From: Bacteroidota bacterium
Lineage (GTDB): Bacteria > Bacteroidota > Ignavibacteria > UBA10030 > UBA8401
DNA length: 35,901 bases
Reading direction: 5' to 3'
Assembly: GCA_019455105.1 (NCBI GenBank)
Contig: JACFMZ010000017.1
Span: 1-35,901 of the forward strand
Numbering within the stretch: the stretch's first letter is position 1; each line of letters begins with the position of its first letter. Shown one piece after another: positions 8,503 to 23,518 of this stretch. The notes under the pieces were generated by a model. It was not told the origin of the DNA. It saw nothing but the letters and a program-made list of their open reading frames with translations, and did no database searches. The position numbers and the translations under genes were made by a program.

Positions 8503-8575
8503 ATTCTTAACGCCGTTAAGATAATTAATTTTTTTCACACGGCAGAAATTTTTTTATGTTCAGCGAATGGAAAAT

Positions 8576-8604
8576 AAAGGTCTTTCAATAATTGAAAGAC
8601 CTTT
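8576..8604. terminator. Two-way hairpin terminator between convergent genes
   Basis: AAAGGTCTTTCAA (8576-8588) and TTGAAAGACCTTT (8592-8604) form a perfect 13-bp stem with a three-base loop. It lies between the stop of the M28 peptidase and the stop of the reverse-strand lipoprotein gene. The T-tracts on either side are short, so termination strength is uncertain. Position and symmetry fit a bidirectional terminator. Confidence 0.7.
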
Positions 8605-8610
8605 GTTCTT

Positions 8611-9246
8611 TTATGGAAGATAATCGACCGACTGCGGTTTCACCCGCTTAAAGATAACGTACTTCTCACCGTACTGAATCGGTTTTGTTATTTCGTCCGT
8701 TTCCAGTTTCGACAGAACTGCCTGAATATGTTCAGGATACGATTGAATGTTTACCTCGCCGATTAATCCTTCATTTATTCTTGTTGCCGATTTGGAAAAT
8801 AATTTGGCAACATCACAAAACGGGCAGCCGTTTTTTAAAAGCTGATAGAGCGAATCAGCCTCTCTTTTTGATGAACTGGTAATTTCTGCGAGAGTTAAAA
8901 TCTGTAAATCGGATACGCGAACAACGGCTGTCTGTTTCAGCCAGAGGCGGACAGGATTACCTTGATAATATGCCGGCTGATATTTCCACTGCATAATGGT
9001 TGCAATAGCACGGGCATTCCAATCTTCGTCTGTACTTCCACTTAATAAATTAACATGCCGAACCGTTCCGTCTTCCATAACTAAATATTGAAATTCAATT
9101 CTTGTATTCGAGTTAGCGGGACACGGAGGATACATTGGTAATGGAATGCGTTCAACAATTTGCGGTAAAATAAGATCGGGATTTTGCGATACCGATGAAC
9201 ATCCGGCAAGAAATGCTAAACAGAGTAGAAAGCTGAGAGGTTTCAT
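8611..9246 (-). CDS. Lipoprotein with TonB C-terminal-like domain and degenerate parvulin domain
   Basis: The 211-residue product starts at the ATG whose complement ends at 9246. It has the perfect ribosome binding site GAAAGGAGG and begins MKPLSFLLCLAFLAGC, a lipoprotein signal with Cys16. Upstream extension to 9306 would spoil the signal peptide. Residues about 48-112 look like a TonB C-terminal domain (EFQYLVMEDGTVRHV, then ARAIATIMQWKYQPA and VRLWLK). Residues about 115-203 align with parvulin-type prolyl isomerases of the SurA/PpiC kind, including FCDVAKLFSKSA, GLIGEV, LSKLETDEITKPI and KYVIFKRV. Both usual histidines are replaced (Glu121 and Val197), so isomerase activity is doubtful. 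A CPFC pair (141-144) lies in the first parvulin helix. It should sit in the periplasm, anchored to a membrane. There is no ExbB/ExbD partner next to it and its function is unknown. Confidence 0.8.
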   Translation of the reverse strand: MKPLSFLLCLAFLAGCSSVSQNPDLILPQIVERIPLPMYPPCPANSNTRIEFQYLVMEDGTVRHVNLLSGSTDEDWNARAIATIMQWKYQPAYYQGNPVRLWLKQTAVVRVSDLQILTLAEITSSSKREADSLYQLLKNGCPFCDVAKLFSKSATRINEGLIGEVNIQSYPEHIQAVLSKLETDEITKPIQYGEKYVIFKRVKPQSVDYLP

Positions 9247-9274
9247 TGTGTTCCTCCTTTCACTTGTTTCTACC

Positions 9275-9472: not shown

Positions 9473-9865
9473 TTATCCGCCGGAGAGACTGTATAATAAA
9501 ATACACAGAACAATAATGGTAATGCCGACGTAGAGAAAATCTTCTTCCAATAAAAAAGCAAACAATGAAAAAACAACGCGGGCAATCGGCGTTGCAATAA
9601 GCAAGAGAATTCCCAATTGAATGACTGCCGTGCCGTGAAGCTGAAAGGCGGAAGCAATAATTGCCGGAATGCTGCGTAACTCGTTCGCTTCGCCGGTAAA
9701 CGTGCTGAATGAAAATGAGGATTGATTATTCTGAGAAAAAAATAAAATTGCACCGAAAAGCACCACCGCGCCGGAAATGAAAACACCGATGCGAAGCAGC
9801 GTTCCGATTAACTGCTCAATCTTATCATCTGTAATATTGAAAAACGCAATCTTTCGCCGTTTCAT
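9473..9865 (-). CDS. DUF1634 family inner-membrane protein
   Basis: The 130-residue protein has three predicted membrane helices (about 22-43, 79-103 and 109-127). Its N-terminal part, TDDKIEQLIGTLLRIGVFIS, is typical of DUF1634, followed by the SIPAII and LGILLLIATPIARV segments common to the family. Genes of this family are repeatedly found beside TauE/SafE transporters. That is so here, with one base between the TauE stop and this ATG (TAAAATG). It is probably an accessory subunit of that transporter. The molecular role is unknown. A competing overlapping frame (9412-9786 on the same strand) has no family signature and is discarded. The 226 bases between this gene and the lipoprotein start hold only the promoter candidate noted there. 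Confidence 0.85.
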   Translation of the reverse strand: MKRRKIAFFNITDDKIEQLIGTLLRIGVFISGAVVLFGAILFFSQNNQSSFSFSTFTGEANELRSIPAIIASAFQLHGTAVIQLGILLLIATPIARVVFSLFAFLLEEDFLYVGITIIVLCILLYSLSGG

Positions 9866-9866
9866 T

Positions 9867-10703
9867 TTATAATCTCCCGGTAATGCCGTTAAAAATCATT
9901 TCCACGGCAAGAACAAAAATAACAACGCTGAACACTAACCGTAAAGATTTTACGTTGGCTTTCTGTAAAACTCTGGCGCCGCTCAGCGAGCCGATAAGCA
10001 CGCCTAAGACAACCGGCATGGCAATAATCGGGTCAATGTAGCCGCGGTGGAGATATAACCCGGCGCTTGCCGCAGCCGTTACGCCGATCATAAAATTGCT
10101 GGTAGTGGTGGAAACTTTAAAAGGAATTTTCATCGCCTGATCCATCGCCAGAACTTTTACCGCACCGGAGCCGATGCCGAGCAGTCCGGAAAGCGCGCCG
10201 GCAGCCGCCATTAAGCTAAAACCGGCAGGAACAGAATAGACATTGTACTGCTGCATTCCTTTGGATGTCGGAAATTCTCCATTTAATTTTAATTTTGTTG
10301 CCAGTGCATCCGGGGGTTTGCCTGATGGCGCATCGTGATGAGCGCGGCGCGACATTATTGCCGAATACAATAAGACTAATCCGAAAATAATTGCAATAAC
10401 AGAAGTTGAAAGAATTCCCGCCAGGTACGCGCCGAATAATGCGCCGATTGTTGTCGCAATTTCTAACAGCATCCCAATGCGGATATTGGCGTATCCTTCT
10501 TTAACATACGCTGCCGCCGCGCCGGATGATGTGGCAATAACTGCCACCAGCGAAGCGCCGATAGCATAACGAATATCAACACCAATCACTAACGTTAAGA
10601 GCGGAACAATGACAACGCCGCCTCCCAATCCTGTTAGTGCGCCGATGAGTCCCGCAAGAAGTGAACCGCCGAAAATTAGAAGTGTAAATTCAGTTGGAGT
10701 CAT
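9867..10703 (-). CDS. TauE/SafE-family sulfite/organosulfonate or anion exporter
   Basis: The 278-residue polytopic membrane protein has the TauE/SafE signature. Its N-terminal repeat contains GALTGLGGGVVIVPLL and YAIGASLVAVIATSSGAAAAY, and the second repeat contains GALSGLLGIGSGAVKV and STTTSNFMIGVTAAASAG. Around eight hydrophobic segments are seen. The family (formerly DUF81) moves sulfite, sulfoacetate, thiosulfate or related anions across the inner membrane; the substrate cannot be assigned. The gene lies directly upstream of DUF1634 and the pair is surely one transcript. No good ribosome binding site is seen before the ATG. An 18-bp palindrome lies 55 bases upstream and could be its operator. 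Confidence 0.9.
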   Translation of the reverse strand: MTPTEFTLLIFGGSLLAGLIGALTGLGGGVVIVPLLTLVIGVDIRYAIGASLVAVIATSSGAAAAYVKEGYANIRIGMLLEIATTIGALFGAYLAGILSTSVIAIIFGLVLLYSAIMSRRAHHDAPSGKPPDALATKLKLNGEFPTSKGMQQYNVYSVPAGFSLMAAAGALSGLLGIGSGAVKVLAMDQAMKIPFKVSTTTSNFMIGVTAAASAGLYLHRGYIDPIIAMPVVLGVLIGSLSGARVLQKANVKSLRLVFSVVIFVLAVEMIFNGITGRL

Positions 10704-14800: not shown

Positions 14801-15751
14801 ATGGAACAACGATACGCAATCGGCGTCGATCTCGGCGGAACAACGGTAAAGACCGGATTAATTTCAGAATCCGGCGAAATTGTTTTTCAAACAAAACTTC
14901 CGACTCTTGCCGAACAAAATCCTGAGGCAATTATCAGCCAGATAAAAAAGACAATTCACGATGCGCTTCAGGCGGCGCGCGGAAAACATCTTGCCGGTAT
15001 CGGAATTGCTTCCGCCGGAATTATTGAAAACCCGGGGGGAATTGTAAAAAGTCCTCCGAATTTTAAAGGATGGGAAAGCATCCCGCTCGGCAAAGAAATG
15101 GAAAAAGAATTCGGAATGGATGTAGTAGTGGATAACGATGCAAACGCGGCAGCAGTTGCGGAATCGAAATTCGGCGCCGGAAAAGAATATCCGAATTTTC
15201 TTTTTGTTATTTGGGGAACGGGAGTCGGCGGCGGAATTATTTTGAACAATCACATCTATCGCGGACAGTTCGGCGGAGCGGGCGAAGTCGGACATATTTC
15301 CATTGATTACAAAGGACTGCAATGTAACTGCGGAAGCATCGGCTGTGTGGAAGCGTATGTGGGACAGAAGTATTTATCGAAACGGACGATTGAAAAATTG
15401 CAGCATCATCCCGAATCATCGCTTCATAAAATTGTAGGGGGAAATCTTTCCGCGCTTGAACCGATTCATCTTTCTCAGGCGGCGGAAGCGGGGGATGAAT
15501 TCTCTCGGAATGTCTTGCTCGAAGCAGGACAGTTACTCGGCGTTGCCATTGCCAGCGTAATGAATATGCTGGACCTTCGCGTAACGGTTATCGGCGGAGG
15601 TGTTTCGGCAGTCGGTGATTTTGTGTATAATGAAATTATCGCGACAACAAAAAAATATGTATTAACGCCGCTTCGCCCGGGGATTACTGTGCTGCGCGCA
15701 AAACTTGGTAATGATGCAGGAATGTTAGGTGCTGCGGGTCTTGTTCTCTAA
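14801..15751 (+). CDS. ROK-family sugar kinase (glucokinase-like)
   Basis: The 316-residue protein has the ROK fold: phosphate-1 loop GVDLGGTTVKTG (8-19), catalytic Asp113 in DNDANAAAVAE, WGTGVGGGI (138-146), GEVGH (161-165, sugar contact) and the zinc motif CNCGSIGC (175-182) with Glu184. No helix-turn-helix precedes it, so it is an enzyme rather than a repressor. It likely phosphorylates glucose or an N-acetylhexosamine with ATP in the cytosol. The sugar cannot be named from sequence alone, but glucokinase is the usual assignment. It lies 42 bases after rarA and 70 bases before the preferred LptD start. Confidence 0.92.
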   Translation: MEQRYAIGVDLGGTTVKTGLISESGEIVFQTKLPTLAEQNPEAIISQIKKTIHDALQAARGKHLAGIGIASAGIIENPGGIVKSPPNFKGWESIPLGKEMEKEFGMDVVVDNDANAAAVAESKFGAGKEYPNFLFVIWGTGVGGGIILNNHIYRGQFGGAGEVGHISIDYKGLQCNCGSIGCVEAYVGQKYLSKRTIEKLQHHPESSLHKIVGGNLSALEPIHLSQAAEAGDEFSRNVLLEAGQLLGVAIASVMNMLDLRVTVIGGGVSAVGDFVYNEIIATTKKYVLTPLRPGITVLRAKLGNDAGMLGAAGLVL

Positions 15752-15821
15752 AAGAAAAAATATTTTCTATATTCATTGTTTACGATACAGTAATGCTGAA
15801 CAATATGGCATTGCTGTACAG

Positions 15822-18407
15822 TTGCGCGTTCTCGCTTTCGCCGTATTTCTTTTTGCCGCTCAAATAGTTTCCGCTCAAACACCGGATTCGTCTGCGCCTC
15901 TGAGAGATTCCGTTACAGCAGTAAAAGATACTTCCACATTTTTTTCTGATTCTCTTTTCGCAAAAAAAGATACAACAAAATCTTCCGGCGGGATTGATTC
16001 CGTAGTTACCTATTCTTCTTCGGATTCCATTGTCTTTACATTTTCCGATAAGCAGATGAAGCTGTATGGAAAAGGAAAAGTTCAGTATCGAGATCTTGCG
16101 CTGACGGCTGAGCAGATTGAGGTGAATTGGAATTCGAATAATCTCGAAGCTTCCGGCGTGCTGGATTCTTCTAAAGCAATGACAACAGATTCGCTGAAAC
16201 AGCGTTACCGCGGCACTCCGGTGATGAAAGAAGGTTCTGAAGAATATAAAGGATGGAAGATCGGTTATAATTTTAAAACACAAAAAGGGCGTGTTACGCT
16301 CGGCGAAACAGAAAGTGAGAAAAGTTATTACTACGGCGAGCAGATTAAAAAAGTTGACCGCAATATGATGTTTATCTCAAACGGAATGTTTACTACCTGC
16401 GAACTCGGTCATCCGCATTTTTATTTTTTTACGCCGGAAATGCGCATGACCATGAAAGATAAAATCGTTGCCCGGCCGATTTATCTCTATATTTCCGATG
16501 TGCCGATTTTTGCTCTTCCATTCGGCGTGTTTCCGAGTCAGGGGGGAAGGCGTTCGGGAATTATTGCGCCGGCGTACGGCGATGACGGAAGAAGAGGGCG
16601 TTATCTTTCGCATTTAGGGTACTACGAAGCAATAAATGATTATATGGATTTCAGCATTGCCGGTGATTGGTACACCAGCGGCGCGTATCGCGTCTATCCC
16701 AATTTTCGTTATGCAAAGCGGTATGATTTTACCGGTTCAATTTCCGGTGAATATGCGCGTGATATCAGCGGCGAGCCGAAAGATTTTGACCGCGTGAATA
16801 ATGAATATTACCGCGCAAATCTTATTCATCATCAAACCTTTAATCCTACAACGCGTCTTGATGTGGATTTTACCTTTGCCAGCAACAATTCATTTCAGGC
16901 AACCAATTCATACAAAGAATATTTGCAGCAGGAAATTTATTCTAACGCCACCTTAAGCAAATCGTGGGAAGGAACAAACCGAAGCATGACGGTGAATATT
17001 TCCCGCCGCCAGGATCTTCGCTTGGGAAATGTTGATGCAACGCTTCCTGCCGCCAGTTTTTCTCAAGGTCAGGTGTATCCATTCCGCTTTGGAAAAACAA
17101 AATCTTCTTCAAGCTATCAGTGGTATGAAATGATTGGCTTGAGTTACAGCGCTCAGGGAATGCGTAAAGAGAACAAAACACGGCAGAACGACACAACGGC
17201 GTTTACCTTTTATAAGCGAGAAGGTATTAATCATAGTCCGTCAATTAATTTAACATTGCCGAAACTTGGATATTTTTCTGTTACGCCGTCGTTAAATTAT
17301 TCTGAAAAATGGTACGACAAAAGTTCCGCCATTACCGGATTTGATTCTTTGAGGAATCCCGTTGTGGAAGATAAAAACGGATTTGAGGCGGTTCGCTATT
17401 TCAGTACCGGCGTAAATGTTTCAACAAAACTTTACGGCATTTTAAATTCGCCGATTCCCGGTATCGTCGGATTTCGTCATACGGTTACGCCGTCGATAAG
17501 TTATTTTTATCAGCCGGATTTTTCTGAAAAGGAATGGGGTTATTACACATATTATACCGATAGAAGCGGGAGAACGGTAAAGTTCAATCGTTTTCAAAAA
17601 GAAATATTCGGCGGTGCGCCGGCAGGAAAATCACAGGCGATAAATATGAGCGTTGGAAATTTATTTGAAATGAAAACCGCCGCGAAAGATACAATTCAGA
17701 AAGAACAGAAATATCAGTTGTTAAATTTAGGCGCCAGCGCGGGATACAATTTTGCCGCCGACAGCATGCGTCTTTCTGATCTTTCCGTAAATTTCCGAAC
17801 TGATGTTGCACAGATTCTCGGCTTAAGCGGAAATGCAAATTACAGTTTTTATGAATTTAATCAGACGGCGAATACGCGGGTAAATAAATTTCTTTTTAAT
17901 GAAGGGAAAGGTATCGCACGAATGACGAGTTTTAGTGTAAGCGCCTCCATTACACTCAGTGGCGAACGAAGAACGGCTGAAACTCAGCAGCAAAAAGATG
18001 ACTCAATTCGTGTTGCGGACAATCAACTGAACCGGCAGACCGGTTATCGCGGAATATATCAAGAAGATGTTCCCGATTTCAGTGTTCCCTGGAATCTCAG
18101 CGTCAATTTTAATTTTAATCAGAACCAGGAAAATCCGAAAAATAAATTTCGCAATGCAAGCGTTAACGGAAACTTAGGATTTAGTCTTACGGAAAATTGG
18201 CGGTTTACAATGTCGGGAAATTATGATCTCATTCGAAAACAATTTGCGGCACCCAGCATCAATATTTTCCGCGATCTGCATTGCTGGGAAATGAGTTTCC
18301 AATGGACGCCGATCGGCGCGCTTGCCGGTTATCGTTTTGAAATTAAAGTGAAGGCGCCGCAATTGCAGGATATTAAAGTTACCAAAACCGAAAATAATCG
18401 TTTTTAA
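15822..18407 (+). CDS. LptD/OstA-like outer-membrane LPS assembly protein
   Basis: With a TTG start at 15822 the 861-residue product begins with a clean signal peptide ([18 protein letters not shown]). A GTG at 15729 would add 31 residues, overlap the kinase gene and bury the signal, so I consider it unlikely. No ATG is in frame and no ribosome binding site is clear. Residues about 70-170 form an OstA/LptA jellyroll ([22 protein letters not shown]). The LptD signature follows ([42 protein letters not shown]), then a long beta-barrel rich in alternating aromatic strands. LptD inserts lipopolysaccharide in the outer leaflet with LptE. This large Bacteroidota-type form lacks an obvious LptE partner in the window. 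It is followed one base later by the DUF255 gene. Confidence 0.9.
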
Positions 18408-18408
18408 T

Positions 18409-20508
18409 ATGAACCGTTTACAATTTGAAAAATCTCCGTATCTCCTTCAACATGCACAGAATCCTGTGGATTGGTTCCCGTGGGGAACGCAAGCATTTGA
18501 AAAAGCAAAAAAAGAAAACAAGCCGATATTTCTTTCAATCGGATATTCAACGTGTCATTGGTGCCATGTTATGGAACATGAATCGTTTGAAGACGAAACT
18601 GTCGCAAAAATTATGAACAGCAATTTTGTCTGCATCAAAGTCGATCGTGAAGAACGTCCGGATGTTGATAAGGTGTATATGACCGCCGTGCAGATGATGT
18701 TCGGACACGGCGGCTGGCCACTATCTGTTTTTCTTACGCCGGAACTGAAACCGTTTTACGGCGGCACCTACTTTCCGCCGAAAGATATGAACGGAAGGCC
18801 GGGATTTACAACGGTGCTGGAAAGAATCAGCGAAGTGTGGCAAAAAGAGAACGATGATATTGTTCACTCAGGCGAAGAATTAATAAACGCTATGCTTCAG
18901 CAGCAGTGTGTAAATATTGAAACATCGGAAATTTCCGAGTCGATGCTGAAAAGAACGTACCACCAGCTTGCGGCAAGTTATGATGTGAAATACGGCGGTT
19001 TCGGCGACGGTACAAAATTTCCCCGCCCGGTTATTTTTAATTTTCTCTTTCGTTATTACCGGCGAAAAAAAGAAGATGAGGCATTAAAAATGTCCCTAAC
19101 AACTCTTCTGGCAATGGCAAACAGCGGAATGGTTGATCATCTCGGCGGAGGGTTTCACCGCTATTCCGTAGATGCGCAGTGGAGAGTTCCGCATTTCGAA
19201 AAAATGTTGTATGATCAAGCGCAGCTTGCCCATTCCTACTGCGATGCCTATCAGATTACTCAGGATGAAGTCTTTGCCGCTACGGCAAGAGAAACGCTGG
19301 ATTATGTTCTTCGTGATATGACTTCTTCCGAAGGGGGATTTTACTCGGCGGAAGATGCGGACAGCATTGATCCGAAAAATCCGGGACGAAAAACCGAAGG
19401 AGCATTTTATGTTTGGGAGAAAAACGAGATTGAAGCCGTATTAACTCCGGAAGAGGCAAAAGTATTTTGTTTGTATTATTGCGTAGAAGAAAACGGAAAT
19501 GCTTTTTCCGACCCGCAGAATGAATTTGTTAAAAAGAATATTTTGTATTCTCCGTTAACCATTGAAGAAACAGCGGAGAAGTGCGGCGTAACATCGGAAG
19601 TCTGTGCTCGTTTGCTGGAAAGCGGAAAGAAAAAACTTTTTCACCATCGTGCGGCGCGGCGCCGTCCGCATCTGGATGATAAAATTCTTACCGGATGGAA
19701 CGGTCTGATGATTGGCGCAATGGCGCGCGGTTCACGTGTGCTGGGAGAAAAAAAATATCTTAAGGCGGCAATTGCTTCGGCGGAATGTATTCAGAAAAAC
19801 CTGTTTCATTCCGCATCGCAAAAATTATATCGGCGCTACCGAAGCGGTGAAGCAAAAATTGATGCGCAGCTTGATGATTATGCATTTTATATTTCCGGCT
19901 TACTTGAATTATATTTTGCCACATTCGATCTTCGCTGGCTGAAATTTGCTTCCGAATTGCAGGGACTGCAAACGACATTATTCTGGGATTCATCCGGTGC
20001 CGGATTTTTTGATACCGACGGAAAAGATTCTTCATTGTTAGTTCGTATGAAAGAATCGTACGACGGTGCCGAACCTTCAGGAAATTCCGTTTCTGTATTG
20101 AACCTTCTCCGTTTAGCTGAATTGACCGGAGAGAAGCAATTAAAAGATTATGCGGAAAAGTCATTAAAATATTTTTCGGGATTGCTTCAACAATCTCCGC
20201 AGACGGCGCCGTTAATGATGTCCGCCGTTGATTCATATCTGGCTGCACCGATGCATCTTATTCTTGCCGGCGGAAAATCCGAAGCAGAACAATTTGCCGG
20301 CGCTGTTTCAAAATTTTATCTTCCCGATTTATTACAAATTTTATTGGATAAAAGTTCTAAAGAATATTTCCAAGCAAAGCTGCCGTTTACAACCTTAATG
20401 GGAAATGAAGCAGAAGAGAGAATAACGGCGTATTACTGTAAAGATTACGCGTGTCAGCTTCCGGTGAAAACCGCGGAGGAACTTGTCACCCTTATACAGA
20501 AATACTAA
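18409..20508 (+). CDS. DUF255 thioredoxin-fold protein (YyaL/SSP411 family)
   Basis: The 699-residue cytosolic protein has an N-terminal thioredoxin-like domain with the family opening [19 protein letters not shown] and active-site-like C49-H50-W51-C52. The segments [10 protein letters not shown] and [11 protein letters not shown] (about 76-110) follow. The rest is an alpha/alpha-barrel domain related to N-acylglucosamine 2-epimerases and glycosidases ([53 protein letters not shown]). Members are common in bacteria, archaea and animals (spermatogenesis-associated protein 20). Their reaction is not established to my knowledge. One base separates it from the LptD stop, so they should share a transcript. 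Confidence 0.93.
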
Positions 20509-21024: not shown

Positions 21025-21747
21025 ATGAAACAAGGTTCACTCAACCTGATTATTATCTTCGGTGCCGCTATCATCGGCTACGCGATTTACGAATATATGC
21101 TGCCGCAATTTGTTAAAGAAGGAGGTCCGCTTGTTGCCGGTCTTGTTGCTCTTTCTATTATGGTGTTAACATATGTTATTGAACGTTTACTTTCTTTAAA
21201 GAAAGCCGGCGGAAAGAGTCCTCTGCCGAAATTTCTTCAAGCGTTGGTAAAAAATTTGAATGAGAATGATATTACCGCAGCAATTACCGCCTGCGATAAA
21301 CAACGCGGTTCGCTTGCAAATATTGTGAAATCAGGATTGATTCGATATCAAGAGACCGAAACGAAAAAAGATTTTACGAAAAAAGAACGCATGGAAGAGG
21401 TAAAACGCGTTATTGAAGAATCCACGATGCTCGAAATGCCGATTCTTGAAAAGAACCTTATTTCATTATCAACTATTGCCTCTATTTCTACAATGTGGGG
21501 ACTGCTTGGAACTGTGCTTGGAATGATTCGTGCTTTTGCCGCTCTTGCCCGCGCCGGCGCGCCGGATGCCACGCAGCTTTCTCTTGGAATTTCCGAAGCG
21601 CTTATTAACACCGCCGGCGGAATCGCCATTGCGATTGCAGCGATTGTTTCTTACAACTTCTTTACGACAAAGATCGACGGCATGACCTATATGATTGATG
21701 AAGCAAGTAAGAATATTTTAATGAACTTGCAATCGAAGCACGAATAA
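21025..21747 (+). CDS. MotA/TolQ/ExbB proton channel protein
   Basis: The 240-residue inner-membrane protein has two N-terminal hydrophobic segments (about 7-27 and 38-56), a cytoplasmic loop and two conserved C-terminal helices (147-170 and 192-213). The family core is SISTMWGLLGTVLGMIRAF, then LSLGISEALINTAGGI with the Thr in the proton path. With two ExbD proteins it should form the proton-driven motor that energises TonB. The extra N-terminal helix is usual in Bacteroidota-type ExbB, as I recall. AAAGGAG lies before the ATG. Gaps to its neighbours are short and on one strand, as in an operon. Confidence 0.93.
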   Translation: MKQGSLNLIIIFGAAIIGYAIYEYMLPQFVKEGGPLVAGLVALSIMVLTYVIERLLSLKKAGGKSPLPKFLQALVKNLNENDITAAITACDKQRGSLANIVKSGLIRYQETETKKDFTKKERMEEVKRVIEESTMLEMPILEKNLISLSTIASISTMWGLLGTVLGMIRAFAALARAGAPDATQLSLGISEALINTAGGIAIAIAAIVSYNFFTTKIDGMTYMIDEASKNILMNLQSKHE

Positions 21748-21766
21748 AACTTGAAGAGGTTTTCTT

Positions 21767-22222
21767 ATGGCAAAGAGTAAACGTGTCGGTTTTAAGCTCG
21801 ACATGACCCCGATGGTAGACGTCGGATTCTTGTTGTTAACGTTCTTTATGTTAACAACGCAATTTAAACCGCCCGAAGTAGCAGAAATTGTTCTTCCGGC
21901 ATCGCACTCTGCATTTAAACTGCCGGATTCCGATGTTTTGACGATTACCATTGATAAAGACGGCAATATTTTTATCGGTGTAGATTCGCAAAATCTTCGT
22001 GCGGCATTGTTCGGCGAACAGAATAAATTAAAAGCCGGTGTCCAGGTAAATTTACAAGAACTGGATCAAACAATTCGCGAAGCCAGAACACGAAATCCAA
22101 AATTACGTACTGTTATTCGCGGGCACAGAGATGCACAATATAAAGTTGTTCAAGATGTGATGGATGTTTTACAAAAAACATTGGTAACGCGTTTCAATTT
22201 GGTTACTGATCTTGAAAGGTAA
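21767..22222 (+). CDS. exbD: ExbD/TolR biopolymer transport protein, first paralog
   Basis: The 151-residue protein has one membrane helix at about 17-34 with the conserved proton-carrying Asp18 in LDMTPMVDVGFLLL, and a periplasmic ExbD domain that ends VMDVLQKTLVTRFNLVTDLER. It should pair with the TolQ/ExbB protein. GAAGAGG serves as ribosome binding site. It is followed after 19 bases by a second ExbD, which is the common Bacteroidota arrangement. Confidence 0.93.
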   Translation: MAKSKRVGFKLDMTPMVDVGFLLLTFFMLTTQFKPPEVAEIVLPASHSAFKLPDSDVLTITIDKDGNIFIGVDSQNLRAALFGEQNKLKAGVQVNLQELDQTIREARTRNPKLRTVIRGHRDAQYKVVQDVMDVLQKTLVTRFNLVTDLER

Positions 22223-22241
22223 TCCTTAGGAGTTTATACTT

Positions 22242-22754
22242 ATGGCAGATGTTGATTTATCGCAATCGAAGGGGAAGCAAAAGCACGGAAAAAAGAGGAA
22301 AGGTAAACGTCTTGGTGTGCGTATAGATATGACGCCGATGGTGGACGTAGCTTTTCTCTTGTTGACGTTTTTTATGCTCACCACAACAATGAGCAAACCC
22401 CAAACAATGGAAATTAATTTACCGCCGGATTCTAAAACAAATGTGGAAGTCGCCGAATCCAACTTGTTAACACTTCGCATCAGCGATGACTTTAACGTGT
22501 TTTGGAATATCGGTATTGAAAAACCGCAAAAGGTCGCCGGAGCTGATAAAAAAGAAAAGCTTGTCAATCTCGGAAAACTTTTAAAAGAACGAAGTGCGGC
22601 AAACCAAAAATTGATTACACTCGTTAAAGTTGATGGTAAAGCAAAATATATTGATATGGTAGATATTATGGATGAACTTAATATAAATGATATCACTAGA
22701 TTTAGTCTTGCCCCGATGCTTGATGAAGATAGAAAATTAATTTCAACGCTTTAA
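22242..22754 (+). CDS. exbD: ExbD/TolR biopolymer transport protein, second paralog
   Basis: The 170-residue product has a Lys-rich cytoplasmic tail (8-24), the same DMTPMVDVAFLLLTFFML motif with Asp35, and a periplasmic domain longer than that of the first copy. The two paralogs are similar around the membrane helix but differ in the periplasmic part, so they probably form a mixed ExbD pair inside one channel. TAGGAG lies upstream of the ATG. It overlaps nothing and is followed 26 bases later by tonB. Confidence 0.93.
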   Translation: MADVDLSQSKGKQKHGKKRKGKRLGVRIDMTPMVDVAFLLLTFFMLTTTMSKPQTMEINLPPDSKTNVEVAESNLLTLRISDDFNVFWNIGIEKPQKVAGADKKEKLVNLGKLLKERSAANQKLITLVKVDGKAKYIDMVDIMDELNINDITRFSLAPMLDEDRKLISTL

Positions 22755-22780
22755 CCTCAAATGTGTAAGGGATAATAATT

Positions 22781-23518
22781 ATGGCAACAATAACAGCCGA
22801 AAAATCTGTATACGGCTATAAAGAACTTCGCCTATTAGCAAAGAAATATTCTTACACAGCTTTAATAATAGCTGGAATATTTCATATTGCGGCGATGGGA
22901 ATATACTACGGGGCGCAGGCGTTGTCTGTAGAAGAGGAGCCGGTCTATTCGGTTCGTATTATGAAATACAGCGACCTTGGTCCGCCTCCTTCAATAACCA
23001 ATTCGCAAGCAGCACCGGCGGTTTCTGTGCAGGCGCCGACAGCACGCCCGACAGTCGGAACGCCGGTACCGGTTCCCGATGCTGAAATAAATCCGGAGCA
23101 AACCATTGCAACGCAGACAGAAATGGCGGCAGCAATGCCGAGCGGCGAAGGTATCGGCGAAGGTTCGGGTCCCGTGGAAATTGAACAGGATGTGAAAATT
23201 GAAGACGACAGTCCACCGCCGGATTTTGTTCCAGTAGAAAAACAACCGCAGCCGATTCCGGGAAATAACCCCGCGCCGGCATATCCGGAAATTGCCCGCC
23301 GCGCCGGTGTTGAAGGTACGGTATGGGTAAAAATTTGGGTTGATAAAGACGGACATCCGAAAAAAGCGATCGTACAAAAATCCGATGCAGAGTTGTTTAA
23401 TCAGCCGGCAATTGATGCGGCGATGAAGTGGAAATTTACACCGGCAATTATGAATAACGGTCCGGTTGCCGTATGGGTTTCCATACCGTTCCGCTTTAAG
23501 CTGAACACCGGACATTGA
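22781..23518 (+). CDS. tonB: TonB-family energy transducer
   Basis: The 245-residue protein has a cytoplasmic stretch of about 26 residues, one membrane helix (27-49), a Pro/Ala/Glu-rich periplasmic spacer (about 55-160, with glycine-rich GEGIGEGSG) and a TonB C-terminal domain (about 162-243). The last contains PAYPEIARRAGVEGTVWVKI and AAMKWKFTPAI. TonB uses the ExbB/ExbD proton motor to open TonB-dependent receptors in the outer membrane. None is in this window, so its clients are unknown. The Pro-Lys repeats of classical TonB are replaced by an acidic spacer. AAGGGA is the ribosome binding site. Confidence 0.93.
   Translation: MATITAEKSVYGYKELRLLAKKYSYTALIIAGIFHIAAMGIYYGAQALSVEEEPVYSVRIMKYSDLGPPPSITNSQAAPAVSVQAPTARPTVGTPVPVPDAEINPEQTIATQTEMAAAMPSGEGIGEGSGPVEIEQDVKIEDDSPPPDFVPVEKQPQPIPGNNPAPAYPEIARRAGVEGTVWVKIWVDKDGHPKKAIVQKSDAELFNQPAIDAAMKWKFTPAIMNNGPVAVWVSIPFRFKLNTGH

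Follow-up and report, generated by a model that had tools for sequence, protein, structure and literature searches.

The PrsA foldases are lipid-anchored and carry a foldase N/C module of their own. The parvulin of E. coli PpiD has been published as inactive, and the chaperone activity of SurA and PpiD resides outside their parvulin domains, according to the available part of the source (PMC2956729); a statement on inactivity of SurA P1 was not found in PMC2556385. In Pin1 the catalytic histidines are His59 and His157, and the accessible text of the same paper describes the parvulin TbPar42, which keeps the histidines and is still inactive, with peptide-dependent shifts nonetheless seen (PMC6468809). 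This indicates that residues alone are an imperfect guide to activity. The BAM complexes of Bacteroidota contain PPI-fold lipoproteins, reported in the available sections as BamJ and BamK (PMC12578637) and BamM (PMC12611786), and in other parts of the phylum organisms without BamP, a further BAM accessory, may have unrecognized analogous proteins, as stated in the accessible portion of one of these two papers (PMC12578637 or PMC12611786). In this work we analyzed a stretch of 35,901 nt (hereafter the window) from a Bacteroidota bacterium of the class Ignavibacteria, which encodes a lipoprotein joining a TonB_C-like domain to a parvulin-like domain. We concluded that this protein belongs to a real family of well-supported identity, and that its unusual part is the fixed, class-wide combination of familiar modules in one lipoprotein, not the loss of the catalytic histidines. 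No description of the TonB_C-parvulin pair was found in a literature search whose reach mostly excluded subscription journals.

The gene, its signals and its N-terminal features are located in the window as follows.
8611 to 9246, minus strand: TonB_C-parvulin lipoprotein gene, an open reading frame of 211 aa with ATG at 9246
9253 to 9259, minus strand: Shine-Dalgarno sequence AAGGAGG, read from the sequence
8573 to 8607, no strand assigned: terminator-like hairpin between convergent genes, strong (z -5.68)
9202 to 9246, minus strand: predicted signal peptide, residues 1 to 15, from the sequence, with the lipobox recognized by eye
9199 to 9201, minus strand: predicted lipidation residue Cys16, with Ser at +2; Cys in 90 of 90 homologs with a readable N-terminus

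The motif GGAGG also precedes the chosen start in the inspected f1 homologs of the lipoprotein, f1 being one of six taxonomic families in the order. The hairpin is common to the lipoprotein gene and the convergent downstream M28 peptidase gene, and the upstream gene on the same strand ends 226 bp before the lipoprotein start codon. The strong shared 3' hairpin and the 226-bp gap make it likely that the lipoprotein gene has a transcript of its own, and the original prediction of a monocistronic gene is plausible in this light. At 9473 to 10703 (minus strand) two genes lie next to each other and encode DUF1634 and TauE/SafE proteins; the stop of TauE falls at the start of DUF1634. Elsewhere in the window (15729 to 20508, plus strand) an LptD_2 family gene (15729 to 18407) is immediately followed by a DsbH/thioredoxin-domain gene (18409 to 20508).

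The lipobox LAGC16 was seen by eye, the Pfam LPAM_1 model scoring 13.0 bits against a cut-off of 20, and the invariant Cys among the homologs bears out the lipid anchor that had been proposed. In the E. coli Lol rule the +2 residue governs outer-membrane sorting, and a residue other than Asp fits the outer membrane; Asp was found at +2 in none of 90 family sequences. At least two acidic residues among the six that follow the lipid Cys are described for the BamH-K surface lipoproteins in the available part of PMC12578637, and such a mark is present in 2 of 90 homologs, with none in the window protein. The absence of Asp at +2 and the rarity of the acidic surface-export mark suggest that the protein is likely held in the outer membrane, facing the periplasm, by rules taken from bacteria other than Ignavibacteria.

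The mature protein is composed of two domains, whose coordinates are given below together with the residues discussed later.
8917 to 9147, minus strand: TonB_C-like domain, residues ~34 to 110, with W76 and W87, from Pfam and fold match
8638 to 8898, minus strand: parvulin-like (PpiC) domain, residues ~117 to 203, from Pfam Rotamase and fold match
8884 to 8886, minus strand: Glu121, in the column of the first catalytic His, from alignment with the two parvulin domains of SurA
8656 to 8658, minus strand: Val197, in the column of the second catalytic His, from the same alignment
8815 to 8826, minus strand: CPFC, residues 141 to 144, not conserved

Pfam matches TonB_C at residues 49 to 104 (E 9.4e-8) and Rotamase at residues 124 to 201 (E 1.7e-8), both above the curated cut-offs; apart from TonB_C and Rotamase models, no Pfam family exceeded its cut-off in the lipoprotein, and a search of PHROGs and NCBIfam gave no match above cut-off. 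Both Pfam domains were matched by 17 of the 17 family members tested, and a profile built from 17 relatives matched PrsA (1zk6, 1e-8), SurA (1.3e-8), and TonB (3.1e-4) in the PDB. These results together show that the domain matches are not due to chance. An AlphaFold2 model, built from four sequences only, is of moderate confidence (pLDDT 69.5, pTM 0.43; residues 153 to 168 mostly poor), so the mutual placement of the domains is not fixed by the model. In a fold search, the best match of model residues 115 to 204 is PrsA (4wo7_B, Z 10.9, 2.3 A, 86 aligned residues) and the parvulin half also matches SurA (1m5y_A, Z 9.6), while residues 25 to 115 match the TonB C-terminal domain 6i97_D (Z 10.0, 2.8 A, 89 aligned). 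The Rotamase hit and the PrsA and SurA matches thus agree on a parvulin fold for the second half, as had been proposed from the sequence, and the Pfam, profile and fold results likewise uphold the TonB_C-like unit in front of it.

For the family analysis we gathered 92 sequences in three rounds (59, 30, and 3); we did not collect partial matches (those of G089 and G126, and short ones to TonB_C or the parvulin alone). Of 22 genomes from the taxonomic family to which the window belongs, 20 produced a match of some kind, and 17, counting the window's own genome, have the full-length protein. Among the 98 genomes searched in the order, 48 have a full-length copy and G089 has only a partial match to the family's front half (residues 5 to 91). 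The lipoprotein occurs in families f1, f5, and f6 and is missing from f2, f3, and f4 (23 genomes), that is, from three of the six families of its order, which shows that it is dispensable. Wider samples matched in 83 of 391 Ignavibacteria genomes at E 1e-15 or better, in 26 of 395 genomes of the phylum at 1e-12 or better (with parvulin-only and TonB_C-only hits among these), and in 5 of 145 genomes of another class of the same phylum, where the matches are more diverged. A scan of GTDB contigs with a 4-row alignment returned only three loci, all already present in the genome search: one in a MAG of Ignavibacteriales, with 45% identity, and the other two in Bacteroidetes/Bacteroidota MAGs. Two or three diverged family copies per genome were observed in G047 (L103, L104), G541 (L165, L177), and G548 (L170, L181, L184).

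Conserved positions include W76 (90/92), W87 (91/92), A130 (89/92), Asp/Asn166 (85/92), P189 (83/92), and R201 (82/92), and the two halves are alike in mean column entropy, at 2.35 and 2.26 bits (89 rows). As R201, Asp/Asn166, and A130 show, constraint persists in the parvulin half in spite of the missing histidines. The spacing is also fixed: the inter-domain junction from residue 108 to 119 is 11 residues long in 91 of 92 sequences, and 32 to 36 residues separate the lipid Cys16 from residue 49 in all 87 rows that have both. Together, the domains thus make up one compact unit near the membrane.

Next, we consider the catalytic positions. The original prediction described a parvulin domain lacking both catalytic histidines, and this loss proved to be a trait of the whole family. 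The first catalytic column is Glu in 64 of 92 sequences and His in one, the rest being Gln, Ala, Gly, and others, while the second has no His in 92 sequences and is mostly Val, Ala, or Ile and nearly always hydrophobic. Homologs retaining both histidines were looked for among the 92 and none was found. The sole first-column His is that of L086, whose sister L087 has Gln, and in a maximum-likelihood tree of 90 of the 92 rows (the truncated L126 and L186 were left out) it lies deep among rows with Glu or Gln. The His of L086 looks like a later change and fits less well as an ancestral remnant, and its nested position implies that the family diversified only after both histidines had gone. The protein is a member of the fold family, yet with the histidine pair absent it falls outside the active PpiC/parvulin enzymes. 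Based on the family-wide loss of the pair and established parvulin enzymology, we infer that the parvulin half no longer isomerizes proline bonds. Parvulins without the histidines are not rare. Seven other parvulin domains were scored in the same genome, of which five retain both histidines and two have neither, namely L006 (Tyr/Ser) and L008 (Glu/Thr). These two domains and the published inactive PpiD make the finding of a dead parvulin less odd than the original prediction implied. L008 is a SurA-like open reading frame of 627 aa on contig C34 of the window's own genome, and its first-column Glu is the residue seen in the lipoprotein family.

Genomic context was surveyed at 59 loci, 56 of them with a scorable center (L098, L119, and L120 were dropped). 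Across the 56 scorable loci the lipoprotein gene has no widely common neighbor and no conserved neighbor tie to BAM, TonB-dependent transporters (TBDTs), or TonB; a function based on the operon or on neighbors was rejected for lack of any neighbor widely common to these loci. The commonest neighbor cluster within four genes covers 10 loci and is mixed, two inspected members having secretion-type C-termini by eye. A probable lipoprotein of 180 to 197 aa (by eye) is found near the gene in a few f1 genomes only; it is the next gene downstream in L015, L073, L075, L076, and L078 and the third downstream in L072. The TBDT plug count has a median of 24 in genomes with the lipoprotein vs 15 in those without (98 genomes; the 49 genomes scored as having it include the partial match G089). 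Within the three families where some genomes have the gene and others lack it (58 genomes with a completeness of at least 90%), the difference in plug count has a p value of 0.063, and plug density per Mb in the same 58 genomes shows no difference (p 0.49). Co-occurrence with TBDTs was rejected as evidence because the signal vanishes on density within families; the difference in counts is lineage structure and no evidence of a link.

The reading we prefer, tentatively and at somewhat less than an even chance, is that the lipoprotein is a non-catalytic tether or client-binding accessory that works on the periplasmic side of the outer membrane and docks via its TonB_C-like domain. The two-domain lipoprotein would sit in the outer membrane and face the periplasm. 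Its dead parvulin half, which retains the fold and a conserved surface, would probably bind extended client segments, as inactive parvulin domains can, with PpiD and TbPar42 as precedents. The TonB_C half lies no more than about 20 residues from the lipid and is connected to the parvulin by the 11-residue linker; it would probably dock by strand pairing on an outer-membrane beta-barrel system, for example a TBDT or its assembly machinery. The fold matches, a constraint that seems to have outlived catalysis, the short tether, and, by analogy, the PPI-fold lipoproteins of the Bacteroidota BAM favor such an accessory. Against it, a chaperone module of the SurA/PpiD type is absent from the lipoprotein, there is no genetic link to a partner, half the families of the order do without the gene, and the moderate model confidence leaves the relative placement of the two domains unfixed. 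The family is a concrete conserved candidate for an accessory like those of the BAM in Ignavibacteria, and the very short lipid tether together with the fixed linker yields a simple structural prediction.

A bolder version of the accessory reading, which we regard as quite unlikely, would make the protein a class-wide accessory not described before, a TonB mimic anchored on the outer-membrane side: not energized by ExbBD, it would grip TonB boxes or plug segments of TBDTs while the dead parvulin holds neighboring unfolded segments, and in this way a chaperone of the pseudo-isomerase type would be tied to the assembly or gating of the transporter. If TonB-box binding were true, a TonB-like domain would be acting from the outer-membrane side. 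It is improbable, in our judgment, that the protein is instead a competitor or regulator of TonB, in which a TonB_C domain held at the outer membrane would trap TonB boxes or the TonB protein and so damp or time energized transport. The TonB domain matched in the fold search (6i97_D) is a receptor-complexed one, and the window has a separate cluster in which ExbB (21025 to 21747) and two ExbD/TolR genes (21767 to 22222 and 22242 to 22754) are followed by TonB in a row spanning 21025 to 23518 on the plus strand; this TonB (22781 to 23518, plus strand) is canonical, with TonB_C at the C-terminus. However, the regulator idea meets neither linkage to TBDT genes nor a plug-density difference within families, and it leaves the parvulin half unexplained. 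Somewhat unlikely, though a real contender, is a lipid-anchored holdase or scaffold that works alone, its TonB_C-like fold being merely structural or dimerizing and contacting no TonB-dependent system. Gene neighbors that are not conserved would suit it, and so would the occurrence of TonB_C-like domains in several further periplasmic proteins encoded by genomes with the family, as judged by eye: L030 is a lipoprotein with TonB_C alone, and L031, L036, L037, and L038 join a TonB_C-like domain to other periplasmic-looking domains in longer fusions. But the conserved W76 and W87 and the fixed spacing to the lipid and to the parvulin exceed the needs of a passive spacer.

Two further alternatives were weighed. 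An unconventional active prolyl isomerase, with Glu121 standing in for the histidine pair, could draw on the prevalence of Glu in the first column, but that column also varies to Gln, Ala, Gly, and others and its partner column is hydrophobic nearly throughout. Such an unconstrained residue pair is unlike catalytic sites, so Glu121 is disfavored as a replacement catalytic base and we consider this isomerase very improbable. Almost no credence is given to a redox-active or disulfide-regulated protein. The CPFC pair on which this idea depends is indeed present at residues 141 to 144, as first described, but not inside the first helix: in the model it lies between helices 127-138 and 143-150. Both cysteines occur in only 2 of 92 sequences, the window protein (L009) and L078, which has CDFC; a functional disulfide is therefore unlikely and CPFC was rejected as a functional motif. 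The commoner Cys of the family is a single one in the residue-124 column, right after the LAEI strand, which is found in 43 of 89 homologs and is Ser in the window protein.

The lipoprotein would work like known inactive parvulins with a docking fold of the TonB type, and it shares features with several known systems, though TonB, SurA, PpiD, and PrsA all differ from it. BamJ, BamK, and BamM resemble it as PPI-fold outer-membrane lipoproteins of the same phylum, as far as the available parts of the papers describe them (PMC12578637, PMC12611786). By the same accessible text BamJ is of the FKBP_C type, whereas the window lipoprotein is a parvulin, no TonB_C domain is mentioned for BamJ, BamK, or BamM in those parts, and the acidic export mark of BamH-K is rare in the window family, the window protein itself lying outside the BamJ/BamK-type surface lipoproteins by that mark. 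With SurA and PpiD it shares a parvulin fold without catalytic role, and PpiD is also membrane-anchored according to the available portion of PMC2956729. SurA and PpiD differ in having an N-terminal chaperone module, no TonB_C, and no lipid anchor, and SurA has the histidines in our alignment; the mature lipoprotein consists of two short domains only and is not a chaperone of this type. PrsA of Bacillota is similar in its lipid anchor and parvulin fold. However, in the printed alignment PrsA has SHIL and YHII, with the histidines, where the window family has LAEI and YVIF, and PrsA has its foldase module and no TonB_C, while the window family has TonB_C and no foldase module. The TonB and TolA C-terminal domains share the TonB_C fold and family match, so that part of a TonB energy transducer is present; unlike TonB, the window lipoprotein has no transmembrane anchor or long Pro-rich spacer. 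It is anchored by lipid instead, only ~17 residues separate Cys16 from the TonB_C domain, and that domain stands N-terminal with the parvulin behind it.
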